DNA of 64,000 nt from Whalleya microplaca (Eukaryota; Ascomycota; Sordariomycetes; Xylariales; Xylariaceae): the NCBI GenBank assembly GCA_022497155.1, contig MU385787.1, forward strand, positions 62,001 through 126,000. Direction: 5' to 3'. Shown here piece by piece: positions 18,722 to 59,333 of the stretch (the first letter of the stretch is position 1; every line of letters starts with the position of its first letter). Position numbers and translations under genes: made by a program. Below the pieces are notes generated by a model that did no database searches, was not told the DNA's origin, and saw only the letters and a program-made list of their open reading frames with translations.

Positions 18722-18732
18722 CGGATCATCCG
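18722..18732. promoter_or_regulatory. CGG-N5-CCG palindrome, site 3
   Basis: The core CGGATCATCCG has the same GGATNATCC heart as sites 1 and 2, but the outer bases match less well. Its centre is 46 bp from that of site 2. Confidence 0.65.
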
Positions 18733-18811
18733 CGGATCCTTGGGACCATTTATCCCAACACACAAAGAATATTACTATACTCAATTGAATTGAGCATACA
18801 TATTCTTACTA

Positions 18812-21354
18812 ATGAAACGTAAGGCTCCGGTTGCGGCAGATGAGCCGCAGAATCGGCGCCGGCAGCCCCAGATTTCGTGCGACTTCTGCCGTAGTAAGAA
18901 GCTCAAGTGTGACCGCGGAGCCCCGTGTTCCAGCTGTGTAGTTCGCAAACTGCATTGCTCTAGCCAGCCAGAACCGAGACCTATGTAAGTTAGCGTATTT
19001 CTTATAGTATTTATGTATATGGAGATTGGGTTGTGGCTAATGGGCCTATAGTACAGATCCAGACACGGTCGTTGAGGCCGACTCTAGCATCCTTCAAAGG
19101 CTTCAGAATCTAGAGAAGGCACTTTTCGGATCCAAGAGAACAGCTGAAGCTCAGAAGGGCTTTGCTACAGCTAGTCATGCATCGTCACCGTCATACCAGG
19201 ACAGTGAACGTCAACAGACCGCGAAATTTCTCGATTCAACTTACACAAGGGATGACCATGGTGTAAGTAGAACCTGCGTCCCTTCGTCAAGTCATTGCCA
19301 AACGCTCAGCAAGGTAACCAACTAAAGATCCGTAGGTCTCATTACGACCAGGACGCCTACGCTTCCGCGTCGCCCCAGCCGCTTCCTTGGCAAGCCCTCC
19401 TAGTGCTACAGGTATCTTCATAGACGGGGATGGAGCAGCGAAATCAGCCTGGATGATGACGCGCGAGGAAGCCCTGCTCCTACTGCAAGACTTCATCGAT
19501 AGCCCTTACCACCTACTCCCCATCCTCCACGAGTCCTCAACTCGCTCTCTCGTAGAGGACTTCTACACGCAGCTAGAGCAAAACCAGGCCGGCGACCCCG
19601 CCAGCGCGGCCCTCATCCTCAGTATCGCCGCCACAAGCGCGTCGTTCTTCAACGACGACAGCGGCGAGAGCGGACCGCGCGTCTTCGCTTCCACGGAGGA
19701 GGCGGCCCGCGCCTCGGCCGCCTGGAGCCAGTCCGCGCTGAAAATATTGCAGGATCCCGCGCGCCCGACGTCCACGAGCCTCGCGGCGTGCCAGGCGTGG
19801 GCTATCATCGCGTACGTCGTGTATAATGCGGAGGGCTGCTCGGCGCGCTTCCGGTTCCTGCACAGCTGCTCCGTGGCTGTGGCGCGGGATTCGTCACTGC
19901 ATCTCGTTGATAGCCCGACGATGATCGCAGCAGCCGCAGCCGCGGAGAGGCAGGATGATGTCGCGACGAGGGAGATCAAGCGGAGGCTTTGGTGGCATTT
20001 GGCTTCCACAGACTGGTGAGTGGTCTGTCTGCTTCTCGCACTTTTGGGTTTTTTTATCAGAGCAAAAACTAACTCAGCTAGGTTGCTGGGCTTAATGGGC
20101 GGACCTTTAGGTCAGTATTAGATGTTTCTTTCGGTATCCCCTACAGTCACTGACACATATGGGTTTTGATCTTGAAATAGCCAACCGCGAGTCTTATCAT
20201 ATTTTCTTCTTCGAAGATATCTTTGCTACCTCAAAAACCACCTAATAAAGCACTCCATGCTAACTCCCACCCCTAAACCAGACGGCACATACACAATCCA
20301 ACCGCGCCACACCGCCGTCGCCTACCCGCGCAACCTAAACGACAACGACCTCTCCCAGCCTCACTCCGCACACACCACCTACCCCCTGAACACGCCGACC
20401 CAGATGTCCTGCTTCCTGCAGCGCATCCGGCTCTCCGAGATCAGCCGCCGGGTGATCGACGCGCGCGCGCCCGGGTCCCCGGACCTCGAGCTGCTCGACG
20501 CCGCCCGCGTGCGCGCGCTGGACCGCGAGTTCGCGGCCGCGCTGGCCGAGATGCCGCCCTTCCTGCGCTTTGACGCGCCCGTGCCGCCCGGCGCGCCGCC
20601 GCACCTGGCCCTGCAGTGCGCCCTCGTCTTGCTGGGCTTGCACGTCCGTCGGGCGCGCCTGCATCGCCCGTTCCTGCTCCACGGGACCGAGGACCCGAGG
20701 TGCGCGGACTCGCGCGCGCAGTGTCTGGGCTCTGCGAGGACGGTCATCTTGATCTCGGCGGAGCTGCTGGATGGGTCGTTGGCTTTGGGGGTGGGTCGGG
20801 GCCGGGGCCAGGTGCGCGGAGGTAGGGGTGGACCCCTGACTTATCGCCTGGGTTTGGTCGTCGGCGCTATGTTCATGGCATGTACGGTTCTCGCGCTGAA
20901 CGCGGGGCTGAGCGCGAGCCGCGCCGGACGTGTGGACTCTGACACGGAGACGCACGCGGAGCTTGCGCGCGCTTGTCGCGCTCTCTCTGCCGTGGGGAAG
21001 AAGTCCGCAGTGGCGGCGGGACTCGTGCGCAGTCTAAGGAGCGTACTGCGACGGTACCGCGTCAAAGCGCTTGACGAGGACGAAGCTATCGTCGTTCCTC
21101 AGGGTAGTACTAATCATAACGACGTGGATATCGAGGCTGCGGCTACTGCACCTGAGTCGACTGCGGAAGCTTCTGCTAGGATATTAGCTGGAGGGGAAGG
21201 AGAGACACATCGAGTTGGAGAGCAGCAAGTCGACGCGCCCGGTGATTTTGAATTCGATGGGCTATGGGAAGAATTTCTCGGCACAATGCCGATGCCGGCT
21301 GAGGAATATGATCACCTCTTTGCTGGTTTGGATTCCTTTTGCGGACCAACATAA
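18812..21354 (+). CDS. Zn2Cys6 fungal transcription factor
   Basis: Five exons (18812-18984, 19052-19262, 19336-20015, 20082-20110, 20282-21354) join in frame to 721 residues. The DNA-binding domain is at the N-terminus: CDFCRSKKLKCDRGAPCSSC followed by VVRKLHC gives all six cysteines of the binuclear cluster, preceded by basic residues. A short linker and a heptad-like stretch (ILQRLQNLEKALFG) suit a dimerising coiled coil, as expected for a factor reading CGG pairs. The middle region includes the fungal-specific transcription factor domain, with REIKRRLWWHLASTDWWL and GGPLDGTYTIQPRH. The C-terminal part is acidic (DFEFDGLWEEFLG). It is nuclear by inference. It is the likely regulator of the divergent MFS gene and of itself. 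Confidence 0.92.
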
Positions 21355-38629: not shown

Positions 38630-41165
38630 TGCGTCGCCCAAAATGAAAGGATCAGAAATATTAACACGAGGAACCGATGTCATAACTGTACGCATTCGAT
38701 AACGAGAGTCGACTCGGGACTGGCACCGATGATACATGTATGCCCACGAACGAACCGACCACCCTCTGTATGCATAGCCACACGCATACACAGATACCGA
38801 CCTGCCCACTGGGTTACGAACGAGCTCGATCATGAACCACCGCTACTGAACACCTGACTCAACCTAGAAACCCGGCGTCCGGCTTTAATATACCACAACG
38901 CGCCCGACGCCCCGAAATACCCAGACCCGCTTCTACTTTCTGTTTGTCTCACCATATTCCAACAGGCCGTCGCCACTCACATATCCATCGCATAGAGGCA
39001 GCACATGACAGCGAGTATGACTAATCAGACATGCAACGTCCACACGAGACTACGAAACACGACAGACAGACGACTAACGAATCACGACTACCTTTTCTTT
39101 TATGTTTCTTCACGATATTGACGACAAGCACGAGATGCAAATTGCATGGTTTGATACCCGAGGCAGCATTAGCGAAATCTTTACGTTTTTCTCTTTTCAA
39201 CTCCGCAGCTTTTTACGTTCACGCATGATGACGAGGAGTGCTGGAGGAGAGTGGTCATTATGAGTATCCATGTAGGCGCTAATAGTTGTACGCATGGCGA
39301 CGGATTCACAAGCCTGTAACTATGTGTACTCGCTTGTTTGTCTGTCGATAATTGAGATGGAGATGAGGGGGATATCCCATTGTTGATAATACTATTGGAT
39401 GTTATGGGAAGACTGTTATCTAAGTAGCAGCCGGCGACTATGCCATTTGCTTCGAGATACGATGAGATATTTGTTGATAGTTACTAGTGGATTATGATGT
39501 TACTATTCAAATCAGTCATCATGATCAATTTCTAGGAATTGCCTTATATTCGTATGTTTCTTCCCTAGGAGAGCCGCCTAACCTACTTGAACTATATCAT
39601 ACCCTGATAATTGCACGCTGTCATATTACAGGCCCATTGGAATGTAATGGAACTTACCATCTGATAGCTTGGGTTGCACCAATTTGACGCCCAATGTTAT
39701 CCTGGTCTACCGAGCCGCGAGTTATGCCGTCTTGTATTATAAGTAACCTAGACGCTTTGAAGTTTATCTTACCTTGAAGTTAGTTTTGGGAACCCTTGAC
39801 AAATTGTGTACACTTTTTCGGGACACTCCATATGTCGCTTGTCAAGCTGCTCAAGCGCCCGTGTAAGCGCCCGTGAGGCCCCCTTACGCATTGTCCCGAG
39901 AACCAGGAGGTTGCAAACGCCATATTACGTAGCGCTTCTACGTGTGTATGAGTAAAACATCAAGTCCAAGTAGGGTTGCAAAGGTGCAGCACTTTTCGGA
40001 AAGGTGCCGTTTTATACACATACCCCTGTAAAGTGCGTATAAAACGTAATGTTTAAAACACTAAGCTTGGACCATATAGCCACCTATATATTATCGACAA
40101 CTTATTTTAAATATGATATATAGCGTATATAATGAAATTTATTTTCTAATATAAAAAATTTATTTTTTTATTTTTTATAAAAAATATATATATACCTTTG
40201 CGACCGGAAGATCTCGCAAAATACAGCTAAAATTAGGTACACTAAGCGAGAAAGCTTAGGCCATAACAGGTCCGTGCGAGTGTATAAAACGCAGCCGATT
40301 TAAAAGGTGCTGTATTATACATGTATAAAACAGCACGTATTTTATTGAATAATACAATTTGCAACCCTAAGTCCAAGTTCCACTGACTTCTACGCATGGA
40401 TTATCCTAATCCACCCTTCTACCCGTTGGGCACGTATCTCCTCACTTCCTGCAAATCAGCCCCTCTATCTACGTCAGAGGGGTTTAGCTGATCAACAGTC
40501 GCAACTAAGTCTATCCGTTATCGTCTGAGTACCAAAGGACCAACGTCTGCTGCACCGTTACGTAGAACTACACTGTGGATTCAGATAATAAATATTCGCG
40601 CTGTTAGATCAGGAGCGTGCCGAGGGTGTGGGTAGGGACATGGTTTACGGCACATATTAAGGAGATAGCCGCCGGACGTCACGCTTGCTAACTCCGTGAT
40701 GTTCGGAGACATTTCTTCGATCCCATCGGAGCTACCAGGTAGTAGTTGTTCCGATAACACACTAAAGACGGTGGGGTGGCCCGGTCCAGCAAGCCCGTAG
40801 TTATTTATAGGGTGATATCTGGATCGCATCGGATTTCCAAGATCTCCGACAGGGAGGGAAATTCCGTGTAGTTACATATAGGTACAGCTTGATGGGCCAA
40901 CATTGCAAGAGAACACACTGAAGAGACATCATAACTCAATTAAATTGCGATAGACGTCGTGAAATTCATATTACAACTAACGTGGGTTAAATAGTACAGT
41001 GTGCTCTTCGTTTCCTACCTTAAAGATTTCTTATTTCACTTAGCTGCCAAGTATTACGCTACTAGATCTATACGCTACATCTCTGAGAGTTAAGATATTT
41101 CGCCGTACTAGTTATCTAGGACTATAGGAGCGCACCCAGGGAAGAAAGAAAGGCAACGCGTAAAG
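38630..41165. other. Intergenic region containing a hAT-type element
   Basis: No protein gene was supported. The mobile element at 39971-40369 is listed separately. Its core around 40095-40195 is almost pure A/T, and the flanks are of ordinary composition. Confidence 0.45.
39963..40377. mobile_element. Non-autonomous hAT-type MITE with target-site duplication
   Basis: A 399-bp element (39971-40369) is bounded by perfect 12-bp terminal inverted repeats: TAGGGTTGCAAA at 39971-39982 and its reverse complement TTTGCAACCCTA at 40358-40369. Both ends are flanked by an identical 8-bp direct repeat AGTCCAAG (39963-39970 and 40370-40377). An 8-bp duplication and TAGGG-type ends are hallmarks of hAT transposons. 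Subterminal copies of a GTGC(C/T)GT(T/A)TTATAC-like motif occur inside both ends, in opposite orientation on the right. No transposase frame fits inside, so it must have been moved in trans. Perfect ends and duplication suggest a recent insertion. Confidence 0.9.
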
Positions 41166-42527
41166 ATGGCTCCTCAACTCGTCTTTGGAACCGCCTCGTT
41201 CGGTAGTGAGTGGTATCTAAAACTGTTTATTGCTTCGCCTGTCTTGGTTCGCGAATCACATCCCTGGATGGGATATAAATTAGTCAAAGGCCTACAAACC
41301 ATACCTTGGGGCTTGCAATTATTCTCCAAATTGCCCAAAGGCAGAATGCTGACTCGGATACTGTAGTGGACAAGACGGAGTTTCAGGATGCCGAATCAGT
41401 CAAAGTGCTGCTCAGAACGCTTCAGGAGCTCGATATCAACCGGTTGGATACGGGTGCACGATACCCGCCACTGAGCCCTGGACGATCAGAGCAACTGATA
41501 GGCGAAGCAAAGGAACTCAGTGGAAGCTTTGTCGTTGATACTAAAGTCTTTACCGACACAAGTAATGACGGCAGTGGAGATCTAAGTCGTGAAGCGATGC
41601 GAAAATCCGTCAGCGGTAGCTTGCAACGTCTGCAACGGCAAACTGGAGTGGGTGTCTACTTACTCATATTATACAATCCAGTCAGATCAAATATATTAAC
41701 CTTGGTACCAGGTGAACGTACTCTATGCCCATAGAGCAGATCCCTCGACGCCACTCGAAGAGCAGATTCAAGCCTTTAACGAACAAATCTCACAAGGTCA
41801 CTGTAAGGCGGTAAGTTATATATCCATTCCTCTTTAATCTATTATCTTAGCATGCATAATGCGGGTATGGAGCTTGGTAACCTGACTTCATTACTCAGTG
41901 GGGAGTATCAAACGTGCCAGTCAATGTTCTTGAAAAGATGCTGCAACTCTGTGAGGAGAATGGCTGGCAGAAACCTAGCTGTTATCAAGGCGACTACAAT
42001 CTAGTAACACGCGGGATGGAAACAAAACTCTTGCCGTTACTCCGAGCTCACAATATCTCGTTCACTTGCTTCAGGTATGTAGAATTCCAATTTACTAAGA
42101 TCTAAGCTACCCATAGCGAGTTTCATAGTATTAATATATGCACTGGGAACACAGGGCCCTGGCCTCAGGGTTCTTAACTGGCAATGCGATTAACAACCAG
42201 AGTTCGGGTACCCGATTTGCAAATGACAATCCGCTGGGTAAAGCCATGCTAAGAGTGTATGGGGACGAAGGCCTAAATAACGCAATGAGAAAGTTCGATA
42301 CTGCGGTCAAAGAAGAGGGGTTTATGCCTACCGAAGTAGCGATTCGCTGGGTATATCATCATTCGGCTCTGGATGACGGTGATAACATCCTGCTTGGAGC
42401 TAGCAAGAAGGCTCAGTTAACCGAGACGGTTGGTTTTATCCGAAAAGGACCATTGTCGGCTACTCTCCTAACGCTGGCGGATGAAATTTGGGATGCCGTT
42501 AAGGAAACACGAGGAGAGATTATCTAA
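41166..42527 (+). CDS. Aldo/keto reductase, AKR7 (aflatoxin-aldehyde reductase)-like
   Basis: Five exons (41166-41202, 41367-41647, 41712-41810, 41899-42074, 42155-42527) join in frame to 321 residues. Landmarks are LVFGTASFG, RLDTGARYPPLSPGRSEQLI with the catalytic-region Asp, VVDTKVFTD with the active-site Lys, VNVLYAHRADPSTPLEEQ with the catalytic His, WGVSNVPV, SCYQGDYNLVTRGMETKLLP, ALASGFLTG and LLGASKKAQLTETV, the NADPH-binding loop. The expected role is cytosolic NADPH-dependent reduction of aldehydes or dicarbonyls. The catalytic Tyr position would fall in the segment broken by the first intron, where the peptide reads FGVDKTEF and has no Tyr. The gene appears complete. Confidence 0.85.
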
Positions 42528-42732
42528 GGGTTGGGATATATGGGTGATTTGGGTTACTTAATCCAGGAATCCGTGAAGAGCAGGTATGATCTGTATATGC
42601 ATTAGCTATCGCAAGTCCATATGTAAGATGACTGGGAAAACCGTTTGTATTATATGGGAAGAGAAACTCAACAATGAAATGGCGTCTCTTCTGTGTAATG
42701 CCACGTCTAGTAGTGGGTGTGTCGAGTGTCAA
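42528..42732. other. 3' flank of the aldo/keto reductase
   Basis: No coding signal. This stretch passes directly into the repeat-rich block. Confidence 0.4.
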
Positions 42733-42797
42733 TGGAGTCCCGCCAGCCACCCGGAAGCACACGAAGTCTTCCGCTCCAATACTAATCCAGGGATTAG
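42733..42797. repeat. Structured repeat element, copy A
   Basis: The first of two related segments. It starts TGGAG, shares CCACCCGGAAGCACACGAAG with copy B, and reaches CTCCA (42774-42778), which pairs with the opening TGGAG. A second hairpin follows at 42782-42797, arms CTAATC and GATTAG around CAGG. Copy B keeps the pairing with different bases. Confidence 0.7.
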
Positions 42798-42996
42798 GAC
42801 ACAGAGGAATAACTATCTGAAAGCTAGTGATTAACCAATTTGCAAAGCTGGACAGGAGGATAGAAGCAAGGGGAGCAAGGGGATGAAGAGGTATTAGGAT
42901 ACTCAGCTGGAGAATTGATTGGCCGTCTCGCCTGATGCGGGAGCAACAATTCGCCCAAATTGTCGTTCAACCAGCATCAGGACCGAGACGGAAGAC

Positions 42997-43060
42997 TGGA
43001 GACCCGCCACCACCCGGAAGCACACGAAGTCAACCGCTCCAGTACCGATCCGAAGATCGG
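42997..43060. repeat. Structured repeat element, copy B
   Basis: The second copy, about 260 bp after copy A. TGGAG (42997-43001) can pair with CTCCA (43037-43041). The following hairpin at 43045-43060 has arms CCGATC and GATCGG around CGAA. Relative to copy A, two base pairs of the stem differ on both sides, so pairing is preserved. The intervening 40 nt are almost identical between copies. Confidence 0.7.
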
Positions 43061-43189
43061 GAAAGTTTGTTCTGTTGTTCTGCCGCGGTCTCCCAATATG
43101 GGGACCATGCCAGGAGAGCAAAGCTCGATCAACTGGCGGTTCTTCTATGCGGTCGAGTCCAACGGGCCTCAAGACCGGGTCAAGTCCAC

Positions 43190-44610
43190 ACAACTCGACA
43201 CCAGAAGAACCAAAGTGGACATCCAAACAGGCCGTAGAGAGATGAAGTGTACTCTAGTGTGCATTCAATCACAATGAGTAGCCAGTATTCAAATCCCCGG
43301 GGACACTGCTGGGGCGTGGTCGCCAAAGCGAACCAAGTGGGTCATCCAAACAGCCTGTAAGAAGTTGAAATTTCCTCTAGTGTGAAGCCAATCACAATGA
43401 GGAGGCGGAATTCAACCCTCGGAGAACTGCTGGGCATATGGCCACCCGAAGTGATACCACGAAAAGGTGGACATCCAAACAGGCTGTAAAGAACTGAAAT
43501 TTCCTCTAGTATGCATTCAATCATAATGAGGAGGCAGCATTCAGCTCTCCGGAGACACTGCTGGGGTGTGGTCGCCGGAGCGATGCCACAGATAGGTGTG
43601 CAACCAACAGGCTGTAGGGAGATGAAATTTCCTCGAGTGTGACGCCAATCACAATGAGGAGGCGGAATTCAAATCCCCGGAGACACTGTGGCGGTGTGGT
43701 CGACAAGCATTGCCACACAAAAGTAGGTCATCCAAACAGCCTGCAAGAGATTGGAATTTACTCGAGTGTGACGCCAATCACAATGAGTAGACGGAATCCA
43801 AATCCCCCGGAGAACTGCTGGGTATGGGTCGACTTAAGCAATGCCACTTGAGTGGACATCCAGACAGGCTGTAGAGAGATGAAATTTCCTCTAGTGTGAG
43901 GCCAATCACAATGAGGAGGCGGAATTCAACTCCCCGGAGACACTGCTGGGTAAAGTGGCCGATGGGGACGATGCCACGTTGTTTTGTTTCATCTCGAGTA
44001 GGCTGCTTGACTGAGGTATACCCTAGTGTGCATTCAATCACAATGGGTAGAGTACAGTCGCTGCATTAACTGCGGTATATCCGAGTGTGCATTCCTGTCA
44101 CAATGGATAGAGTACAGCCGCCACTTCCACTGAGGTATACCCGAGTGTGCATTCAATCACAATGGGTAGAGTACAGTGTCGGTAGCTGCCTGCTGAGGAA
44201 TTGCAAGCGGGAGGAGAACCAAATGCACTTGGACGCATCTCGACCGCTGCAAAAGTGTGTGGGGTGGAGGTAGTGGGTCAACCAATAAGCCAGTATGCCG
44301 GTTGGGTTATACCTTAGAGTGTTCTCACGCACAATAGGCAGGGACCGCCGGTCACAGTGACTTACCAGGTGCATGCGTGGGAGTTTTGCTGCGGTGGGCA
44401 AGAATATCGACGACGCACGACTTCTTTTTTTGGTCATCCGACCCGCCGCGCCGGTTGGAATCGGTATACCCGAGTGTGGTCTCACGCACAATGGGTAGGG
44501 ACCGCCGACATGGAAGGCCAGGCATCCGCAACATCAGAGACTGGTTGAAGTTTACTCTAGTGTGGTCTCACGCACAATGAGCAGGGACCGCCAAAATCCG
44601 AGGAGCGGGG
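43190..44610. repeat. Tandem array of covarying hairpins, 12 copies
   Basis: A 31-nt hairpin motif (one copy 32 nt) occurs at 43250, 43373, 43502, 43630, 43759, 43887, 44019, 44078, 44138, 44310, 44467 and 44553. The layout is a 5-nt outer arm, TAG or GAG, TGTG, an 8-9-nt loop, CACA, AT, and the matching 5-nt arm. The outer pairs are TACTC/GAGTA, TCCTC/GAGGA, TACCC/GGGTA or TATCC/GGATA. Ten copies pair perfectly, and the copies at 44310 and 44553 have one mismatch. In the copy at 43502 the inner stem is TATG/CATA instead of TGTG/CACA. The first seven copies are spaced 122-132 bp and share further sequence (CATCCAAACAGGCTGTA, CCCCGGAGACACTGCTGGG) plus a second TGG...CCA hairpin. Later spacings are 59-172 bp. 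No protein frame runs through it. Confidence 0.85.
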
Positions 44611-44654
44611 GACACCGGGTGATCACATCAGTGCATTGATGGTTCACAGCCGAT

Positions 44655-45350
44655 GTAGCCTGTAGATGATCAGTATGGAAACTTATGGATGGAACTTATG
44701 GATGGGGGAGCGGGAAGGTGGATTAGATCAAGGTGGTAATTATGTATTTACCTCGTTGTAGTTGAGGGAGGCATGGTTGGAAGCTCCAGTCTGTAGCCGA
44801 TTAGTATGCTAAATTATAGATAATAGAGTAGTAGAATGGACGATGGCGTAGGATAGATGATGGAATAGGATAGGTGGACGGGTCAGATCAAGGTGAAGAC
44901 GATTATTTATTTACCTTGTGTTATTGTGGTTGCTGCTGTAGTCTTTAGATAGAGTAGGAGGTTCTGGTAGGAAGGTATATCCTGCAGCAGATTAGTGCGG
45001 ATGAAAAAAATAAACGAGAGAGAAAAGTCTACGCAGGAGAGTGCAAAAGGTGGATGATAATTGAACGAGGGCAGTTGGAAGCTAGCTCGGGTTGTTATAG
45101 TTGAAGGGTGCGCAGTTGGAAGCTGTAGTGGGGAGGTGTAGTCTGTAGTTGATGGGTATGGAAATTCATGGAGGAAGAAGTGGGAACAGTAGATGGGACT
45201 TGAGTGAGGAGAATCATTTATTACCTTGCGTTGCTACGTTGCTGAGTTGCTGCCTTGCCTAGTTGCTGCCTTGCCGAGTTGCTGTGGTTGTTGTGGTTGT
45301 TATGGGTCAGGGACGCGTGGTAGAAGGTTGAAGTTGGAAGCTGTAGCGTG
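44655..45350. repeat. Degenerate G-rich tandem repeat
   Basis: A motif related to CTGTAGNNGATNAGTATG recurs at about 44657, 44792, 44982 and 45142. Blocks like AGATCAAGGTG followed by TTATTTACCTTG and GTTGGAAGCT recur between copies. The copies are 135-190 bp apart and strongly diverged. At the right end (45225-45300) a GTTGCTGCCTTGC-like motif repeats. No gene is seen. Confidence 0.55.
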
Positions 45351-45454
45351 TGGCCTAAGGAAAACTGGTAAGCGAAAACACCAAGCTGAATATTGATGAA
45401 TATGACAAGAATAAATGCCTCTGAATACCTAGACGAAGAATTAATGTTGATGAA

Positions 45455-45506
45455 GGAGGATGGTTGAGGATGGTTGAGGATGGTTGAAGTTGGTTGAAGT
45501 TGGTTG
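45455..45506. repeat. Short tandem repeat GGATGGTTGA/AGTTGGTTGA
   Basis: About five consecutive 10-bp units: two of the form GGATGGTTGA, then AGTTGGTTGA-type units. Confidence 0.7.
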
Positions 45507-45578
45507 GTGTGGACTGAGGTAAGAAAGGAATTGGAGTGTGAAGGTGGAAGAATTTTTTTTAAAAGTTGGGAGGGAAGG

Positions 45579-45850
45579 TCTGAGGTATTTATGTACTAAC
45601 AATCAATTGTAGTGGAAGGTGATTGTAGGAAGGTGATTGTAAATTGGAAGGGAAAATCTGAAGTACCTATGTATTTATAATTGCAGTAGAAATGGAAGTG
45701 ATTGAGTACAGGTATTGGATGGGAATTTCTCAAGTACCTATGTACTAACAATGGCAGTGGAAAGTGATTGTAAATCAGAACAAAATATCTGAAGTACCTA
45801 AGTACTACCCAGAATGGCAGTGGGAAGTGATTGCAAATCAGAATCGAGTG
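45579..45850. repeat. Tandem repeat, four diverged units of 60-78 bp
   Basis: Units start at 45579, 45657, 45728 and 45788 with TCTGAAGTACCTATGTACTA-like heads and GCAGTGGAAAGTGATTGTAA-like tails. The period shrinks from 78 to 71 to 60 bp. This suggests expansion with internal deletion. Confidence 0.75.
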
Positions 45851-46305
45851 AGGTTGTGAAGTAATTGTGAGTGATAGGTGAAGTCAAGAAAATTGGTACA
45901 AGTTGGAAGGAACTGTGAGGTAGGTACTTCAATACCTGAGTCCTCGAACCCGGATCTATATTCTATTGGTCTAAGAACTGTTGGAATACAGGGTTGACGA
46001 GATTTGATTACCTTGAGGTTGGTTATCTGGAGGGGTGGATGGCCTGTATATACGCACATGTTCACGAGATGCCCTGTACTGTACCAGTCCTTGGCCCCTC
46101 AAATCAACAAAAGCTATACAGAAGGTTCGTACAACCTATCTACTATCAGTTACACTATCTAACCTTTTGCACCCTATCAATCCACATCAAGAACTCGAGA
46201 TTAGGGTCCAGGTGTAGTCCCGTCTTGATGGTCTACAAGACTACTCCGTCAGTCATCCAAGAATCAAATCGATCCACACTCGGTCCTGCGATTCCCATGC
46301 GTTCT

Positions 46306-48230
46306 TCATGCGTCCTTCATGCGTCCCAAGGCCTTCCGGTACGCGGTGTCTGCCTTCCACTCGATCCACAACACGAAGTAATACTCATAAAGCGGCTGTC
46401 TCTGTGGCCTCCGCTCGTGATACCACTCGTCCAACACTTGGCCCAGATGGTTCTCGTACTCGTGGGCATTACACTTCACGTAGCCTTCAGCTATCTCCAC
46501 CAGTTCCATTACCTGGCCAGGTACTGGCTGTATGATCTTAGCGTTTCCATCATGCTGGCAAAAGCCTTCCTGCAACCGCACCCATCTTCGACCGTCATTG
46601 CCGATACACGAGTCCACATCTTAGGGGTAAATATCTCGCCAGCTCGTAAGAAAGTTCTCCTCGTCCGACAAGAGATGAACAAAGCAGGAGTCTGGAGTGG
46701 TGAACGGAACGGCAGTAGGTAGAGGAATAGGATACCAAAAGAATAGGATACTAAAACTCGGACTCTGGCTCCGAATCGTGCTTGTAGAAGTAGCGTGGTG
46801 GAGATGCTGGCTCTGGTAGCCTCATGACACTCCAGTCATCTACATGGGGACGCCTTGGCAGTACATGACGAGTCCATCCGCTTGGGCATGGGGCGTTGCT
46901 ACTCGCGTTGTGATATCTATCCTGAAACTCAACCCAGCTATTGTGTATAAGCGTTTTTTGGCCCATTCCTATTCTTGTGCTAGCTCTAGGTCACCAATGG
47001 TTTGACCCTGTCAAGTTGCCTCGATGGTTCCCTGTGAGGGGATTGCTCCATGAACCCTATGGTCCAAAGCCGAAGGTCTAGGGATCCTTCCCAACCTGCC
47101 CAACTCCAGCTGGGAAGACAACCGTCATTTACAGTGCTCTTTCGGACTCGACGAGTGACCATAGTGTACGGATTCCATAATAATGCAGCATAGAAGAAGG
47201 CTTCCGGAAGCCCAGGGATGAAACCTTCCACGAATGACCTAGACATAGCGAAAAAGCAACCTCCGATCGCATGTAGTGCATCTTCGGGATATGTCAGATC
47301 CCTTCGATTGTATGACGATATCATAAGTTGAAGTAGCCCCAAATTGGGAATAATTCGAGAGAACGCCGTCCGTGAATCATCTGGACGCAAATGTCCCTGG
47401 CTGCGAATACTACCTACCTCGCACCAAACCGCATCATCACACTCCCATCGCATCCATCCATTTTCGAAGTAAAGTTTACGGCGCGAAAAGATATCTTCTT
47501 GAAAGGTCCAACCTCTTGTGTGCCAGACTGTCCGTTGTGATTCCATCTCTCGACCGTTTCCTTTACTCTCGATTATGCGAACATTTCTCGAGAATGTGTG
47601 GACCGTTTGCCTTGCCGATCGAGGTTTTGAAATTCCTGGTAAGCCATATTAGAAATATCGGTATGTTTGTTGGCGTCGTCCTGGACAATGCATAGACTGT
47701 CAACCCAGAGGTATCATACCTAATCTCTCAGCTAACCCCATAGTTTTGCGAATTGTCCTCGGGATGTTGACATCTTCCTGGGCTACCGACAAGGAGAAGG
47801 GTTCTTGGAGATGATTTATATTACTTTTCAATGCCACGGAAACTGGTGTACCGCCCCATACGTAGCCCAAAGCCACATATTCATCGTTTGGAGAGGACCG
47901 CTTCAGGCATTGACACCATATATCAATAGCCACGACGGCCTAATGTCTTAGAGATGTGCCATTGCAAGCCGATGCTCAGGGAAACACTTTTCTTTCCAGC
48001 GCCGGGGGAGACTATAATCTACCCAACGAACATTCACAGGTGTCCCATAGTTCGCTCGTGACCCATGGAGGCGTGACCAGAGCTGCAATTCCCCGAGAAT
48101 TCGCCTCGAACTTCCCAGATGTAGTATCATATGCCATGATTTGAAGGTGGTCATGGTCTTTAAAACTCATCAACGTGATTTTATCCAATTGCGTAGAGTC
48201 GAAGTTTACGTTGAGCACATCAGCAACCAA
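46306..48230 (-). pseudogene. Decayed heterokaryon-incompatibility (HET) domain gene
   Basis: Minus-strand remains of a HET-family protein in the expected order: YVALGYVWGG (HET motif 1), LAERLGM, then in another frame YLWVDSLCIVQDDA (motif 2), WHTRGWTFQEDIFSRRKLYF (motif 3), LPSWSWAGWEG, PSGWTRHVLP and the C-terminal VLWIEWKADTAYRKALGR. Breaks seen: a frame change near 47710-47718 between LAERLGM and YLWVDS; the stretch between motifs 2 and 3 is far shorter than in the family and out of frame; a stop after KPLVT; TAG at 46751-46753, where relatives have Trp before YPI; and a stop (TAA) at 46621-46623. HET proteins trigger cell death on fusion with incompatible strains. This copy cannot make a full product. 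The first part (48012-48230) is weakly assigned. Confidence 0.75.
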
Positions 48231-49691: not shown

Positions 49692-52600
49692 ATGAAAAAC
49701 CCAACGCTGAGAATCGGGGTCGATGTTGGCGGGTGAGATACGACCGAATTCTATTGGAAGCTTATATGCTGAATCGGAAATCGTAGGACTAATACAGATG
49801 GAGTCATCCTAGATCCGACAAAATCTACTGGCTCTGATCGGGGTATTGTTGCATGGAAAAAGTCGAGTACGACGAAGAACCCGAGCGACGGCATCAATAA
49901 CGTAATACAGGAGATGTTTCGGGAGTCAAAGGTGGAACCTGGTGATATCGCCAGCGTCACTATTGGAACAACGCATTTCATCAACGCAGTAGTTGAGATG
50001 GACAAATCGCGTTTAAGCAAGGTTGCCGTCATTCGCCTGTGTGGGCCATTCTCAAAAGCGATACCTGTTGGAGTGGACTGGCCGCCGAAGCTCCGAAACA
50101 TAATATGCGCGTATCGAGCTACTGTAGATGGTGGCCTCGAGATCGATGGTAGTTTGATCTCAGAGCTTAACGAAGACGAGATCCGGCGTCAGGTCGACAT
50201 CATCAAAGATATGGGAATTAGAAGCATTGTCGTTGTTGGAATCTTCAGTCCGATTGATATCGTTTACAGACAAGAGGAAACAGCAGCAGAGATCATCCAC
50301 AAACTATACCCCGAAGCCGATGTGGTGATTTCGAAAGAGGTAGCGAATATCGGGTACCTTGAAAGGGAGAATGCGGCAATACTGAATGCTTCAATCCTCC
50401 GTTTTGCTCGAAACACCATTCATTCATTCCAAGATGCTGTTGCTCGGTTAAACCTCCAATGCCCAGTTTTCGTCACCCAGAATGACGGCACGATATTACC
50501 AGCTAGCTCTGCAGCTCGGCTCCCTATCAGGACGTTCTCGAGCGGTCCAACTAACAGCATGAGGGGTGCCGCTTTCTTGACCCAAGACTTGGATAAAGAG
50601 CCCATGATGGTTGTGGACATCGGCGGAACAACGACAGACGTTGGCCTCTTGCTACAAAATGGGTTCCCAAGGCAGGCTGCAGCGTACAGCGAAATCGCGG
50701 GCATCCGCACTAATTTTTCATATCCCGACGTTAAGAGTATTGGCTTGGGAGGTGGATCAATCGTTCGAAAAGACAGAGATGGGCGACTAACGATCGGACC
50801 AGAGAGTGTGGGGTACCAGATCCAGGAGAAAGCTTTAGTTTTTGGAGGAGATATTCCCACGGCCACAGACTACACCGTTCTAGGGAATGCGAACGTGCAG
50901 ATCGGTGATCGTTCTGGAGTTGAAGGGAGCCAATTAGAAGCTGGTATATCAGAGTTCAAGGCGGAAGTGAAATCGATGCTAGAGCGTATCGTGGACACCA
51001 TGAAGACGTCTCCCCAAGACTTGCCAGTTGTGCTGGTGGGAGGTGGAGCGATCATAGCTCCAGATATACTTGTAGGAGCTAGCAGAGTTATCAAACCAGA
51101 TTGGTCCGGTGTTGCGAATGCTATCGGGGCGGCCACCGCTCGCGTTAGCGGCGTAGTGGACTCGATTGAAAGTACGGAATCAAGGACAATCTCCCAAGTG
51201 ATCGAACACTTATCAATGAGAGCCATAGATAAAGCAGTGGAAAACGGGGCGACGAGAGAAACAGTGATAATTGCCGAAATGGAAAACTTTCCTCTGCAAG
51301 TAGGTAAAACCCAATCTAATAGTCAACAACTTGAATGAGTTGATTGCTAACTAGATGCCCCAGTACGTGGCAAACCAATCGCGGATCATAATCAAGGCTG
51401 TTGGGGACTTTAACTTTTCTAGAACCGATTTAATGAGAAGCCTGACGAATGGTAACAGTCGGGACGACTTTGCAGACCAGGCAATCGACATTGCTGAAAA
51501 GCAAATTCATACGGATGGCAACGAGGATGAACGCTCCACCCCTCAGTCCTTGGAATATACCCAAGATTACATTGATACATATAAGCCAAATGTTGTCAAC
51601 CGGCAATGGTATATGTCGGAAACAGACCTTCAATGGATTGCCACAGGATGTTACATCCTTGGGACAGGTGGAGGTGGCAGCCCGTATCAACATATGCTAA
51701 GACTTCGAGAGATGCTGAGGGCTGGAGCAACAATAAGAATCATCTCGCCGTGGGATCTAAAGGATGATGACATAGTCGCATGTGGAGGTGGTAAAGGATC
51801 TCCACAAGTATCAATTGAGAAGCCATATGGTGACGAGTAGGTTACACCTTTTCTCTACTGCAAAATACTTCTACTGACAAGGTGGTATAGGATCTTGGAA
51901 TCGCAGAAAGAGCTGTACGAATTTCTCAAAATTAAACCAACTGCTGTGATCCCTTTGGAAATAGGAGGTGGGAATGGTCTACAAGGGCTTATAATAGGAG
52001 CGTCATCGAACTTAGACATCCCAGCGATTGATGGTGACTGGATGGGAAGAGCCTATCCAATATCGCATCAGACAACTCCTGTGGTATTTGAGAAGAAAGC
52101 AACCATGATACCATCTTGTATTTCCGACGGCAATGGACGTATTATGGTTAGTATTCCCTATGCTTTGTTATGAAGTCTATGGTACTTTCTTTACTTACCT
52201 AGGCATATTTAGTTCATGACTAAAGCCCACACAGAACTGGATGTAGAGCGCGCATTCCGCGCAGCTCTCTCCCAGATGGGCTCGCATGTCGGATGCGCAA
52301 AAGGACCCGTCAGTGGAGCCAACACGAAGTCCTGGGTCGTTGAGAACACAGTGTCCTTGTCGTGGAGAATTGGACGCGCAGTTGCTTTATCACGATGTTC
52401 AAACACAATTGACAACGTAGCTGAGGCTATTATCAAAGAGGTCGGCGGCACGGACTCGGCAAAAACTCTTTTCAAAGGGAAGATTGTGGGAGTTGAAAGA
52501 ATCACAAAAATGGGACATGCCTATGGCGAGGTTATCATAGAGTCGACAGTAGCCAATGACTCATACAGTGGCAAGGATAGCCACTATGTTAGAGAACGCC

Positions 52601-52993
52601 TTACGATTCCGTTCAAAAATGAGAATATCGTGGCGAAGAAGCTGAGTTCAAATGGAGAGGAAGAGGTAAACAAACATCCTTTGGAATATGATTGGTACGA
52701 TCATTTAATAAGCACAGGCTGACATTGTCATGGTCTAGATACTTGCAATCGTGCCGGATCTTATCTCAGTAATCGATGCACAAAATGGTGAGGCGTTGGG
52801 GACACAAGAATATCGATATGGCCTACTTGTTGTTGTTATTGGAATAACCGCATCGGAGAAGTGGACGTCAACGACAAGGGGAATTGAAATCGGCGGTCCG
52901 AAAGGCTTCGGCTTCAATGACCTTGTTTATAAACCCCTTGGAAAGTTTAAGAAACCGAAGAGTGTCATAGAGGAGTTTGACCAGTTTATTTGA
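49692..52993 (+). CDS. Hydantoinase/oxoprolinase-DUF917 fusion protein
   Basis: Six exons (49692-49732, 49787-51299, 51364-51836, 51891-52146, 52213-52665, 52739-52993) join in frame to 996 residues. The N-terminal Hydant_A_N part starts RIGVDVGGTNTDGVILD (nucleotide-binding loop) and continues to SVTIGTTHFINAV. The Hydantoinase_A part carries YLERENAAILNASI, VFVTQNDGTI, FSSGPTNSMRGAAFL, VVDIGGTTTDVG, SIGLGGGSIV and VVLVGGGAII. After YVANQSRIIIKAVGDFNFSR begins a second module with TGCYILGTGGGGSPY, IPLEIGGGNGL and IDGDWMGRAYP, typical of DUF917. The ATP-dependent amide or lactam opening role is by family. The DUF917 function is unknown. The enzyme is probably cytosolic. An upstream acceptor ending at 51354 would add three residues (MPQ). 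Confidence 0.88.
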
Positions 52994-54401
52994 GAGGATC
53001 TGGTGTCTAGAGGTCAAGTAAATGATTGAGATTTGAACAAATACGGTACCATAATCACACACATGAGAAAATTAGAGGAGTGAAAGGGAATTTCACACTG
53101 TTGGGGCAGGAGCTCAGCCCAGGCGAAACCGACATTTCCTGTGTGTAACGCTTGATTATGCCGCTAGATTAAAAAATTGCACGTTTGACGATGCCTGCAC
53201 GGGAAGGTGGGCTTGCTAGACTGTTGTCTATCAAATTGAGAACACAAGCAGATAGAGCTTTGTATAACATTGGTCACGAAATCCTTCATTAGTAGGCGCA
53301 AAGAAAATCTTCCCTGGATAATCGAAACGATTATTTTAACAGTGCTCACTAATAATATCAACTAAGTTTAATCTATACCGTATTTAGTTCCTACTGGTAA
53401 TTACCTGATTCGACAGCAGGTGTAAATGACAGGGCCGTATTGTTAGATAGTGTGGTGGTAGTCCGTGCCCACAGCTCTTAAGGGATCTGTAGGTACCATC
53501 ATTAATACACCACTTTTGGTCACCATAATCCTTGCCCTCGACCTCCCTCCTAATCCACAACTACAGTATAGATTGTTATATTATAGCTACTAAGCTTAAG
53601 TCACGTTCGTTTCCTAACACCGCCTTGATATTAGCCTTGGTACCTCATCTGGTGCATAGAGCCATCAGACTATTTGATAGCGCTTCTCATAAAGTTTCTG
53701 ATGTATATTCTCAATAAGCACATATTTTCGGCTGAGACAGATTCATCTAGGAAATCTTCACCGAGCTCATTCTCTGGGGGTATAAGGCCTTCAGATAAAT
53801 GTGTGCTTCGTTCTATAAAACCCTTTGGGAAATTTGTGACACTCTATTATTCTAGGGTATTTAATTGGCCCTTAGAATTTGTTGTAGCCGATAGTGCTAT
53901 TCTCTCGCAGCTATATATAAAGAGTGTGACGAGCTTACGAGCTTCTGACGAATTAAGATATCTTAGATAGATAGCAGTATCTTTTGCTTTGCCACCCAAC
54001 TTATTGCAGGGAGCGGCGCATTGCATACGTGGATCTGAACCTGGAATCTGAGACGCTTCTTGAGAAAAACGATATATTTGTAATACTCGACTGCTATTTG
54101 TTTATGTTGCTGACGCTGCTGTGTAACTCCGCAGCCTACATGAGACCCCCGGTCCAGCTTCTCTTGCTTACTTATGACACTCTGCTCCTCCAAAATTGGC
54201 TGTAGATATTGGCTCGCATGCAGATGCAGGCGTCTTATTGGAAGTTTTTTTTTGTGGGCGGACTGAGTCGGCAAATTGAGAAGACCGACTCATATCCCTC
54301 GTTGCCCCCTCTCCCCGAGTTCCTGTCTCTGACTTCATGTGTTTTGTACTGACACCCTAGCCACAACGCATTTTAGATACAAGAACCACGATCGATATGT
54401 C
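52994..54401. other. AT-rich intergenic region
   Basis: No supportable gene. A plus-strand open frame at 53674-53970 and a shorter one around 53984-54205 have no recognisable motif and no splice partners, and could be relics. A T/G run lies at 54244-54256. Confidence 0.4.
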
Positions 54402-57400
54402 ATGGCAACACAATATGAGAAACCAACCGTGGATTACGAAGAAGGAGAAGAAGAGCCAAGCAAGCAAAATTTGCCAAGTTTCGAACAGCCAGATCAACAC
54501 GAAGATCATATGACTCCAGGCAGCAATCCAGCGCATCCTTCTGGCCGTGACGAGAGTCGTCAGACGCCTGCATCAGATAATAATACTCCAGAGAAAGAGG
54601 TGATTTACTTGAAAGATGCCACAGGAAGGAAGTTCACATTCCCGTTTAAGCTGGCGAGGACATGGCATGTATGTATATCCATCCTTCTAGCTCTCCATAG
54701 AAAATTGACGTTAGCAGGGAATGGTGGATTTGATCGAACAATCCTCGCATCGTATAGAAATAATTGGTCCGCTTATTAAGGCAGGCCACTATGATCTTAT
54801 TGCCCCTGATGGAAGTACAATTCTCCCTTCAGTCTGGGAGCAATGTATTGAACCGGGATGGTTAGTATCTATGCGCTTGTGGAAAGATGCTGACGATGCG
54901 AAAAGGGAGGAGGAATATACTTTGAGGAAGAAGGTTATGGAGGAAGCAAGGGTAAAGGCCGAGGAGGAGCTAAAAAGGTCTTTAAAAGATGAAGCCCCTA
55001 TACGATTCAAAGATGCTGTAGGAAGGAAATTTAGTTTCCCTTTCGAAATCTGTAAAACTTGGCGAGTAAGTTCTGTGTTGGGCCATGTCTTGCTTTGTCG
55101 GATTTAACTAAGAGTTAATTTTATAGGGCATGGAGGAGCTGATAAAAGGTGCCTTCATACACCTAGATATAGTCGGCCTGCATGTTCAAAAAGGACATGA
55201 TGACTTGGTCGGACCGAACGGCGAAGTCATTCTCCCGCAAGTCTGGGAGAAAGTGATCCAACCTGACTGGGCGGTCACCATGGCTATGTGGCCTATGGAT
55301 AGCTTGCGGGATGGCATTCGTGCGCATCGCACACGTCCACCTCCGCCTGGTATGCAATATCCTCCACCTCCACCTCCACCTCCTATACAGTATCCACCAG
55401 CTCACGCCCATCTGCAAGGGCCAAATCCTAGTGTTCCGCATTTTGGCGTTCCGTATCCGTCCATGGGTGAACCTCAATTGGAAGCTGAACCGCCATTGAA
55501 GAAGGCAAACAAGAATCCGGATGGTGTATTGCAGTGGATGGTGCCCGACGCACGCTCTAGGCTAAACCAAAAGAAACCAGATGCGCCAGTACTTGAGCCT
55601 GATTTAGGTGTTACCAAGGTAAAGATAGCTAAACCTCTTAAAAAACAGGGAAGACCCCCACCTTTTTACCTCAACCCAAACCTGTTGCCAAAGGGTCTGC
55701 AGAATCGTCTACAGTCTCAAACGAGTCTATAGCAGACGGCAACGGCGATGACCCGGACTCAAATGAGATTGATTTCACCGAGTTAGATACTCGACGGGAA
55801 GCTCAGAGAAGGAATTTGATCGTAGTCTGCAAATATAGAAACCCATCCAGTCTACAAGGTCGAACAGTCCGACGCCAGACTATCCCGCTGGTAGAGAGGG
55901 CAATTGCTACACCTAGACGGCTCGAGATTAGCTCAGCTCGTGTGTATTTTGAAGGCCCTATGATGATCCAGCCCTCTTCGTTGGAACTCATTCGACGTCC
56001 GAATATAACTCCCGCGCCTGGTATTAAAGTGGCGCAAAGTGAACGAGACCAAATGACTTGGTTGTAAGTGTTTACTTATATGATACAATCCTCTTTTATA
56101 TCTGCGACTCGCACCTCTAGGCACGTCACTAGAAACTTCATGAACTTTCAAGAATTTGAGGTATGCGATCATTTTTGACTCACCGTTATGAGCAAAACTC
56201 AAGGATAGGCGTACAGGACATTGCACTGTTCGACCTCTCATCAGATCCTGAAATTCGACGACTAATAAATCATTTACTTGATACAGTCAAGTCTAAAATG
56301 ATTGATGAAGACTGGTACATAAGGCCTGGGACTGTCCTCCGATGTGATACGAATCCAGCGGAAGATACATTTAACTCCACGCTGTTCGTCTCCTTGCCAA
56401 ATCTGCACTCATGCCCTTATGATAGTCGTCCTTTTCAAAAGGGCGAGGCGATTTGCCGAGACCGGAAACTCCATGAAGCCTTTGATCGTATCAGCACTAC
56501 GAACTTTGGCCAAGAGAAAGGCTGGTATAGCAGACGTGATGGGGGGTTAGGGAGGAATCAAGTATTGTGGGTGCGACAAACGTGGATATTACTTGCTGGT
56601 CAAAGTAAGTCATCCTCATGTGCTGAAAATGAGTTAGAAGTGCCTAATATGATGCTAGATATCCTCACATACGGTAGCTTTTCGAAGGATGTACTTGAGG
56701 CTAGTAATATCACAATACAAGACGAGATATCTCATGCTGACGATGGCGACCGAATCATCCAAATTATGGATCAGGATAGAAGACTGTTCTACATACGCTC
56801 TAGCAAATGCAAGAGTTTCTACGTAAGTAACGATTAGTTGATATTCCCTTGGACTGAAACAATCCTCTGTAGGAATTGCAAGTGGCTTTGATCCGCCAGT
56901 TCGTCCGAATAGGACAAGTGAATATAGAAGATAACCCACTTCACTTTTATCTTCAGGACGGCCAAGAAGTGACTCCGAGGAAATGGTCTAAACTTCTAAA
57001 ACAGGTTGATATTCCGTTGATCAGGGTTATTCTGAATCCGATTTCCACAGCCAAGCAATTTGATGAAGGCTCCTCGTCTTCGGTGATGACCCAGGTTTCA
57101 AAGAACATAGATGACGATATGCTTTCACTGGACGGATCTCAATCGGACGAAGGCACCGACAACACAGGGTCCCAGACATCCAAAAAGGATGCCTATGGAA
57201 ACAATGATTGTGGGTTCTTACTCATAAATTCGGAATCAGCAACAATCAGTACGTATTTACCCGTGCACAATTATGTCCTCTTGTTGGGGCTAAGCCAGAC
57301 GTAGCCCCGGAGTATGATCTTCCAGAATTAAATCGAAAGGTTCCGCCCTTTCTTAGCTGGTTAAGCGAAGCAGGTAGCGGAAAGCCGAAGAATATTGCTA

Positions 57401-59333
57401 GTGGATTCAAGGAAGCCATAATACGCATTGAGTTGAAGCTTCTTCGCGTGGACGAGAAAGAGTACTCTGATAACTTGATGGAAGAATTCTACCAAACTTT
57501 TGACTCGACTGATTTCTATCGAGAAACGAATGCGCTCGAATACGAGGAATTTAAGCACCAAAGAACGAGGTTCCATAAGGGGAAATACAATCAGAAATAC
57601 CCCTATACTTCAAGCCTGTCCGATGACAAAGCCTTGAAGCTGGTGGACGAATACTTCGATGTCAGAATTCTCACACTGGAGTCGTTTATATTAATCGATT
57701 TTGAGTCGAAGCCAACATCCAAGTTCCTCGGTGCCTTGGCAGATATTATGAAGGTATAGTATGACATAGAAATGCACATATATTCTTGACAGGAGTGACT
57801 AATTTGTAGGATCCTACTTTCAGTCTACTTGTTAATGACAATGGTACTGAGGCTTCAGACCCAGATATTCCAGACACATCTATGCAGGAAAGAAAGTCTA
57901 GGTGGGTCGTCTCCCAAACTAGGATGCTTACCGGTAGTCATGAGCTACGCAACAGACCTCGAACGGTAGACGATACGAAATGCAAAGAGTGTGAACGAGG
58001 AACCGTATATTCGAACATGGAAAGCGCCATCACTCACATTCGTCGAGCACACGTCGCAGATTCCATGACTGAAGAAAGTCCCCGCTACTATGTTCTACCA
58101 TTACTAGACGCTTTACACGAAAGGCTAGCAGATAGTCAATTCGACTTGCTTCGGTGTAGTCGCGATACAATGGCTTCAATCCTCCAAAAGCTAGTATCTA
58201 TTCAAGATGGGGTCATTTATGATAACGAGTTTCGAGAACAACGAGGTCTTCCGTGGCAATTGCTCGAGGCATTCAAATGGATATTCATATATGTCAGCGG
58301 GGTCTCCCATCTTCTTCACCAGATATCATGGTTCTACAAGGATGAGCTCCGTCATAAAAATATCAAATACCTGACTAGCGCCAAAATTCGAATAAAGAAG
58401 CACTTGCTTTCTAAGGTCGGCTTGACAATTGAAGACCTTGTCAGGAAGGCCGAGAGAGTCCTTGTGTCCCCGACCACTCTGATGGAAGAAGATAATCCAG
58501 AGGGTTTCGTCAAATCCGTCGGGCAACACTATGTGGCAGCAAGAATAGTGTGCAACCTCCTAAGGATGCCACTTAGGAATAACAAGCAGATATCCAATAC
58601 ATGTGAAACATATACAAGAAGTCTCGTAGGTACTTTATTATCAGATTTCTTCTAGGACTATGCTAATTACAGACAGGCATCCCAAATTACGCGCAATCCT
58701 ACCAAGCGCCAGATCCTCAGTATCGGTGCTCTAAGAAATGAATTAAATATGATCAAGGAATTCCATGAATGGCAAAGGGAGACTCTCTACAACTTTGATC
58801 TTGTCATCAATCCCGATTCATATCCACGCGGTTTCAAACACGAAGAGCGAGCCAAACTCTTCTCGAGCGAATACGGTCTCATAATATGGGAGGACAAGAA
58901 ACTTGAGAAGGACATCCATCAGATTTCACAACTACTGTTAAATTGCGATTGGATGGTCGAGCAAGTCCGCGAACTGACTGAAATTATGAAAGATGATCAA
59001 GGGCGCGCGATCTTTATCTTCACGACAGTTACCATCATCTTTCTTCCCCTGAGCTTCGTAGCTACATACATTAGCATGAGTGGAGGAACGACTGGACAGG
59101 ACTGGAGCGGAATTCAGGCTCTGTTCTGGGAGGTTGCCGGCCCGCTCACCCTCGGAGTCCTTACTTTTTGTCTGTTTGTAGCCCAGAGAGAAAATATTGC
59201 AAACGCAATTCTAGCTCAATGGGTTGAGAAGGCAATGACTTGGAGAGATGTAGAGATGTGGAGATCGCCCAGATCCTGGAAATGGGGAATGAATTCCGAG
59301 ACTAAAGAGGAAGTTCTAGAAGAGTTAGACTAG
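54402..59333 (+). CDS. Tandem ubiquitin-like-domain protein with CorA-like membrane C-terminus
   Basis: Ten exons (54402-54668, 54718-55065, 55127-55607, 55649-56063, 56121-56160, 56217-56822, 56873-57248, 57305-57753, 57810-58625, 58677-59333) join in frame to 1484 residues. Two copies of the fungal ubiquitin-like domain lie near the N-terminus: IYLKDATGRKFTFPF...WEQCIEPGW (about residues 68-145) and IRFKDAVGRKFSFPF...WEKVIQPDW (about 190-265). A poly-Pro stretch follows, then a long region without known domain, then CKECERGT...HIRRAH, a C-X2-C...H-X4-H motif near residue 1045. The C-terminus has two helices, IFIFTTVTIIFLPLSFVATY and GPLTLGVLTFCLFVA, placed as in CorA-type channels, but SMS replaces the GMN motif. 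Function unknown. Intron 4 (41 nt, 55608-55648) is unusually short. Confidence 0.82.

Follow-up and report, generated by a model that had tools for sequence, protein, structure and literature searches.

A single-locus array of twelve covarying hairpins in the fungus Whalleya microplaca suggests a structured non-coding RNA

Between positions 43250 and 44583 of the window (the whole 64,000-nucleotide stretch of Whalleya microplaca DNA analysed here), one hairpin of 31–32 nt occurs in twelve copies, and the twelve-copy covarying hairpin array described in an initial annotation is confirmed. The two arms of these hairpin repeats have changed in step, which points to a structured non-coding RNA as the likely product of the region. 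Specifically, the reading we favor, at just under even odds (about 0.48), is a minus-strand structured non-coding RNA that would carry repeated, putatively protein-binding hairpins.

On the plus strand each copy follows the layout NNNNN-KAG-TGTG-N8-CACA-AT-NNNNN (with N9 in the copy at 44078), in which the outer five bases are paired—i.e., an outer stem of 5 bp, a KAG/AT internal loop, an inner TGTG/CACA stem of 4 bp and an 8-nt loop. The array and its cores are listed below by window coordinates, the strand being the inferred RNA strand and the paired sequences those of the outer stem unless stated otherwise.

43250..44583, minus (inferred RNA strand): array of twelve hairpin cores
43250..43280, minus: core 1, TACTC/GAGTA
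43373..43403, minus: core 2, TCCTC/GAGGA
43502..43532, minus: core 3, TCCTC/GAGGA, inner stem TATG/CATA
43630..43660, minus: core 4, TCCTC/GAGGA
43759..43789, minus: core 5, TACTC/GAGTA
43887..43917, minus: core 6, TCCTC/GAGGA
44019..44049, minus: core 7, TACCC/GGGTA
44078..44109, minus: core 8, TATCC/GGATA, 9-nt loop
44138..44168, minus: core 9, TACCC/GGGTA
44310..44340, minus: core 10, TACCT/AGGCA, with an A-C on the plus strand (G-U on the minus strand) and one A-A on the plus strand
44467..44497, minus: core 11, TACCC/GGGTA
44553..44583, minus: core 12, TACTC/GAGCA, with an A-C on the plus strand (G-U on the minus strand)

The hairpin layout thus recurs 12 times, as the initial annotation had it. 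Across the twelve cores, with nine pairs each, 105 of 108 stem cells are Watson–Crick, two are A-C and one is A-A. All nine pairs are Watson–Crick in ten of the twelve cores, in agreement with the earlier count of 10 copies with matched arm changes; the exceptions lie at 44310 and 44553, where the second outer pair is A-C on the plus strand and hence G-U on the minus strand, and the core at 44310 contains the additional A-A. The TATG/CATA inner stem reported for the copy at 43502 is present, and the four paired versions of the outer stem that had been listed are each found with matching arms, but that list was incomplete, given that a fifth left arm (TACCT) stands opposite AGGCA. The asymmetric KAG/AT internal loop is present in 12 of 12 cores. 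Within the hairpin, variation is concentrated in the loop and the outer arms; TGTG/CACA and most bases of the internal loop hardly change.

Three classes of copies emerged: A (six units), B (three) and C (three).

43212..43977, minus: class A, six units at a spacing of 123–129 bp, with the core inside a longer rod and a small side hairpin (consensus structure)
43999..44180, minus: class B, three units of roughly 60 bp, built around the cores at 44019, 44078 and 44138
44297..44592, minus: class C, three irregularly spaced copies, with cores at 44310, 44467 and 44553 and a common GGGACCGCC flank

Folding of class B predicts an additional CTG/CAG stem, external to the core, in every unit on the plus strand and in two of the three (44019 and 44138) on the minus strand. 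Just before core 10, 24 nt (44272–44295) match class A unit 2 at 83%, so class C probably derives from class A-like units.

Flanks of different classes are mostly unalignable, yet the hairpin is kept. BLAST matches between classes end at 35–42 bp around the core, and when the 60-nt flanks outside the hairpin were compared with gaps, between-class pairs beat shuffles at p < 0.01 in 0 of 45 cases downstream and 4 of 45 upstream, as against 15 of 15 on both sides within class A, 1 of 3 within class B and 0 of 3 within class C. Ungapped identity at 40–60 nt was 16–29% between classes, and within class A it too was only 29% and 60%; we prefer the gapped comparison because small indels break the register of the ungapped one. 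The hairpin appears to have outlasted most of the sequence that surrounds it, and constraint on the core relative to its flanks is supported as well, if more weakly.

Double changes, affecting both partners, are found at five of the nine pairs and in 12 cells of the twelve cores. In a shuffle test with five measures, four gave observed values that 0 of 500 shuffles reached, whereas the count of further pair types was not raised (5 observed vs. a shuffled mean of 5.8). Sliding the partner by 1–3 columns lowers pairing from 97.2% to 31–63%. The initial annotation had proposed an R-scape-type covariation analysis as a check, and our own implementation of such a test, which uses the twelve paralogous copies of this one genome, finds a signal above the phylogenetic null. 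It used two trees of the copies, the first built on all core columns and the second on the non-stem columns of a wider alignment, and for each tree the parsimony changes of every column were placed on random branches in 5000 simulations. The first tree shows 7 same-branch double changes and the second 8, vs. null maxima of 5 and 6, and the 105 observed paired cells likewise exceeded null maxima of 102 and 101; the number of pairs with any double change was less extreme (p about 0.014–0.015). Since the 7 and 8 same-branch double changes lie above the null maxima, shared descent is insufficient to explain the pairing, and covariation above the phylogenetic null, by which structured non-coding RNAs are recognized, was found here among paralogous copies.

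As a control, each copy was folded alone and its pairs were transferred to its sisters, both for the array and for decayed repeats in the same interval (44654–45844). Double changes made up 0.29–0.35 of the changed pairs in the cores, 0.11–0.15 in class A and 0.19–0.29 in class B, vs. 0–0.08 in the control repeats. Changed pairs were kept paired at fractions of 0.29–0.63 in the cores and in classes A and B, vs. 0–0.40 in the control repeats, with class A on the plus strand (0.29) falling within the control range; because cells are not independent, all of these fractions are descriptive only. The earlier contention that neutral decay of a satellite would not keep such pairing is backed by the phylogenetic null and by this neighboring-repeat control, on the basis of which simple neutral satellite decay was rejected. 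Gene conversion alone was rejected on the basis of the double changes private to cores 3, 8 and 10, which have no donor among the other copies; among these three, only that of core 3 has a CpA context on both arms (by eye). Repeat-induced point mutation (RIP) was rejected too, as 43200–44620 carries no RIP signal (TpA/ApT 0.64, (CpA+TpG)/(ApC+GpT) 1.24) by the generally known cut-offs for these dinucleotide indices. For pairing that is kept beyond descent, selection is the likeliest cause.

The main rival to selection is template switching, in which replication copies one arm of a quasi-palindrome onto the other, such that a decaying satellite would look covarying without selection. The creation and repair of hairpin arms by this process is documented in the accessible portion of PMC8794818, and the nine-pair core has no G-U intermediates on the plus strand, as if both sides change together. 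Moreover, the double changes of the array are isolated single pairs, which the same portion of that paper calls uninformative about mechanism, so these changes alone cannot decide against template switching. Yet the KAG/AT loop, flanked by the two supposedly repaired helices, has stayed unmatched in all twelve copies, few double changes (0–8% of changed pairs) occur in the neighboring decayed repeats, and departures from pairing in the class A rod are often G-U on the minus strand. On balance we regard template switching as an unlikely source of the pattern, but one to be taken seriously.

Beyond the hairpins that had been listed before, a predicted longer rod is common to all six 128-bp units and fits the minus strand better. 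On the minus strand, the class A consensus folds into this rod, which measures about 90 nt and has the core near its tip, together with a small side hairpin; unit 3 is an example.

43475..43565, minus: longer rod as predicted in unit 3, about 91 nt; core towards the tip

Two further helices of the minus-strand rod, absent from the initial annotation, are 96.3% and 98.1% paired, with G-U variation; the pair count for this rod covers the 205 of 210 cells that have letters on both sides. The class A consensus reaches −24.2 kcal/mol on the minus strand (z −4.2; 1 of 150 column shuffles as low) and −16.5 kcal/mol on the plus strand (z −2.4; 2 of 150 as low), and an energy gap this large between the strands arose in 5 of 150 column shuffles. 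None of the six class A units reaches a z of −2 on either strand (range −0.6 to −1.8), and single cores have fold z values from −2.2 to +0.5. The evidence for rods is therefore comparative, not energetic, because single units are not unusually stable.

The minus strand as the RNA strand is supported, though more weakly than the pairing itself. Under the structure predicted for the minus strand, class A contains 27 G-U vs. 3 A-C among 205 cells; under that predicted for the plus strand, 19 G-U and 8 A-C among 184. Changed pairs are kept at 0.45 on the minus strand vs. 0.29 on the plus strand in class A, and at 0.63 vs. 0.42 in class B, while for the 12 cores alone the strands are nearly equal (0.45 and 0.45). 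A strand-symmetric alignment of the arms of all 12 copies gave 283 Watson–Crick, 31 minus-wobble, 16 plus-wobble and 56 other cells, counts from which no probability is claimed because many mismatches are shared by descent. UNCG loops occur on the minus strand as C(UCCG)G in one of the six class A units and as C(UUCG)G in one of the two copies of a second element, introduced below; such loops serve as a strand argument in the part of PMC5640933 available to us.

A structured RNA read from the plus strand instead would draw on the lack of strand preference in the cores alone, on core 11, which folds better on the plus strand (−27.8 vs. −19.8), and on a single-copy hairpin at 42923 whose z is stronger there. 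Nearby intron-like patterns are also commoner on that strand: within 42.5–46 kb there are 10 candidates on the plus strand (42713–42863 and 45519–45757) and 1 on the minus strand (44791–44914), none of which overlaps the cores. This reading is nevertheless quite improbable to us, as the consensus fold, the G-U departures and the kept pairs in classes A and B favor the minus strand. The intron scan, which used splice matrices drawn from general knowledge, gave nothing convincing on either strand, and a spliced host transcript was rejected. Further decayed tandem repeat families adjoin the array at 44654–45844, with positive GC skew of up to 0.36; their GTAAAT...CTACAG stretches resemble weak minus-strand introns, one of which passed the intron scan.

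The initial annotation had left the choice between a structured RNA and dyads read as DNA. Function at the DNA level would mean dyads or cruciforms bound by a transcription factor, a recombinase or a chromatin protein, and would be in keeping with stems that are both perfectly matched in 10 of 12 copies, with the placement of the array in a non-coding interval and with the near-invariance of TGTG/CACA. A protein that reads sequence should, however, fix the arms, and the outer arms vary with pairing kept. The spacing of the half-sites is asymmetric (3 nt vs. 2 nt), the interval lies between gene 3′ ends and not at promoters, and the genome pattern search found no dispersed sites. RNA fits better than DNA, in that arm sequence varies while pairing is kept, departures in the 128-nt units tend to be G-U on the minus strand and the internal loop with its unequally spaced half-sites is asymmetric; RNA rather than DNA is accordingly supported, again less firmly than the hairpins themselves, and we hold a DNA-level function to be improbable.

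Were the transcript instead a hairpin RNA diced into milRNA-like small RNAs, the tandem rods of about 90 nt would resemble clustered precursors, and fungi are reported to produce milRNAs. But the consensus rod is interrupted after every 2–5 pairs (unit 3 taken by itself does have a run of 11 bp), and a typical Dicer substrate is longer. Furthermore, conservation is highest in the core and not in a single 21-nt arm. We consider dicing very improbable.

Structured sequence is also found upstream of the array (by plus-strand coordinates), as follows.

42733..43066, minus: span with two copies (42733–42803 and 42997–43066) of a second element
42923..42991, no strand assigned: long single-copy hairpin with 8-bp and 8-bp arms and a further inner stem, between the second-element copies
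43138..43211, no strand assigned: long single-copy hairpin with 9-bp and 7-bp arms, abutting unit 1

One 6-bp stem of the second element differs between the copies by double changes at two pairs (CTAATC/GATTAG to CCGATC/GATCGG), and in the second copy its minus-strand loop is C(UUCG)G (both by eye). The element's small stem was matched in stability by 5–8 of 300 shuffles; with each copy folded alone, the double-change fraction was 0.67 on the plus strand and 0 on the minus strand, and 0.67–0.81 of the changed pairs were kept paired. For both long hairpins, 0 of 300 shuffles were as stable on either strand (42915–42999, z −5.6 on plus and −4.5 on minus; 43136–43212, z −4.1 on plus and −3.6 on minus), while a third upstream hairpin (43075–43140) was not significant, with 14–19 of 300 shuffles as stable. 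On the strength of the second element and the upstream hairpins, we place the left boundary of the structured sequence near 42.73 kb.

The array occupies a non-coding interval between two genes, and because these point at each other the interval lies between 3′ ends. To the left are the plus-strand exons of an aldo/keto reductase ending at 42527 (PF00248 in both frames tested). To the right are minus-strand pieces in several frames (46306–47939) that look HET-domain-like by eye and may belong to a broken or intron-rich gene; a relative carries PF06985, the domain match being that of this relative. A 220-residue open frame among the right-hand coordinates (46986–47648, minus strand) aligns over 98% of its length, at 100% identity, with a predicted protein of Whalleya microplaca, an ascomycete of the Xylariales. 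Minus-strand open frames at 42520–42966, 44153–44533 and 45221–45595 gave no Pfam match at E up to 1, and a protein-coding repeat was rejected, the 128-bp period not being a multiple of three.

The genome searched comprises 48.1 Mb in 114 contigs, of which contig C78 contains the window as its positions 62001–126000, and no second array was found in it. DNA searches with 43190–43700, 43975–44620 and 42530–43260 returned matches at their own locus only, bearing in mind that such searches give lower bounds on copy number. The 25-base core pattern has nine exact matches in the genome, all in the array, and two one-mismatch matches elsewhere. Allowing up to three mismatches, it has 136 forward and 103 reverse matches vs. 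88 and 88 for a reversed-pattern control, an excess that is only partly made up by the array's own copies. A covariance model built from the twelve copies finds exactly those twelve in the window at E up to 10, as expected of a model built from them, with scores of 46.9–60.8 bits; applied to ten out of 19 places outside the array that match the pattern with at most two mismatches, it gave two matches, of 9.6 and 8.7 bits. The initial annotation had looked to dispersed copies for support, but the DNA and pattern searches of the genome found none, and a dispersed transposon or MITE family was rejected since no further array copy turned up in these searches, which give lower bounds. One of the one-mismatch matches to the core pattern (contig C28, 261120–261240; 8.7 bits) has TGTG/CACA and is probably due to chance; different outer arms, TAGAT/ATCTA, lie further out (by eye).

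Searches for known families in and around the array were negative. Against Rfam release 15, 40000–47500 gave no match in the array on either strand at E up to 1; the two matches obtained lie outside it, both far below the gathering score. A self-cleaving ribozyme satellite of the hammerhead type was rejected, there being no ribozyme family among the Rfam matches at E up to 1, as was a tRNA or tmRNA cluster, with 0 genes reported by ARAGORN in the window. A scan for viral-contig patterns gave 8 stretches with one match each, which we take as chance.

Other features of the window are noted for completeness. Strong nested inverted repeats lie at 18640–18860, and the 150-base stretch from 18676 has the strongest fold in the window scan (z −7.5 on the minus strand, −5.0 on the plus strand). 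Long hairpins are found at 40180–40430 (z −4.1 on the minus strand), one of them with 7-bp and 5-bp arms (GTGCTGT.TTATA...TATAA.ACAGCAC on the minus strand). On the plus strand, 49773–52722 encodes hydantoinase/oxoprolinase domains followed by S-Me-THD-like domains, perhaps as one multi-domain gene, and 54333–59333 holds a row of open frames with matches to the ubiquitin-like ULD_2 and to DUF7896, together with a CorA-like match below the Pfam cut-off.

We propose that a structured non-coding RNA gene, present at this single locus, spans about 42.73 to 44.6 kb. Its RNA would most likely be that of the minus strand, running from about 44.6 kb down to about 42.7 kb, and the gene may have grown through tandem duplication of a small hairpin element. 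All copies would present one common landmark, in which a short helix is followed by the conserved asymmetric internal loop, then by the UGUG/CACA helix, which hardly varies, and finally by a loop of variable sequence; in six copies it would sit towards the tip of the predicted rod of about 90 nt. This repeated landmark could be the binding site of an RNA-binding protein, in which case one RNA with about a dozen sites would act as a scaffold or sponge, like the Xist A-repeat or CsrB. Transcription, protein binding and scaffold or sponge action are all inferred from the DNA. A larger claim, that the locus is the founding case of a fungal multivalent structured non-coding RNA, outside Rfam, whose dozen paralogous hairpins are under RNA-level selection and bind one protein, is a speculative one to which we give perhaps a minority chance. 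Should the RNA reading prove correct, the paralogous repeats of one genome would have revealed, by their covariation, a structured fungal RNA that cross-species screens could miss, and the locus would offer a compact test bed for multivalent RNA–protein scaffolds in fungi; if template switching is right, the array is an unusually clean natural record of mutation keeping hairpins paired without selection.

Among known systems, the Xist A-repeat and the Drosophila roX RNAs carry tandem short structured elements with divergent spacers that form a multivalent protein platform. The predicted fungal RNA is like them in its several tandem structured copies and divergent spacers, whereas it differs in being fungal and known here from DNA, with no sequence relation expected. 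The bacterial sponge RNAs CsrB and RsmZ resemble the predicted RNA in that a single molecule bears many hairpins of a similar kind. Their site is the GGA loop, whereas the conserved parts of the array are an internal loop and the UGUG/CACA helix, and the domain of life is another.

We found no literature on such a hairpin array among open-licence papers, in the portions accessible. A closer parallel at the level of DNA is the pDo500 hammerhead satellite of Dolichopoda cave crickets, a family sampled across 12 species in which, according to the portion of PMC2837043 at hand, compensatory changes and a conserved core are explained by a ribozyme within the repeat. Both are tandem DNA repeats in which compensatory changes occur and the core is better conserved than the remainder; in contrast to pDo500 as described there, our array is one 1.3-kb locus that matches neither the hammerhead nor any other ribozyme family. 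Structured RNAs of Ascomycota, some of them intergenic and supported by covariation, have come from cross-species screens (PMC8216456; PMC5640933, in the sections available), and the 17 described in the former are predominantly single copy per genome; the words "tandem" and "repeat" are absent from the main texts of both papers. The array shares with the RNAs of these screens, as reported in those sections, a fungal RNA structure backed by covariation, but where their support is cross-species, that of the array comes from paralogous copies within one genome.
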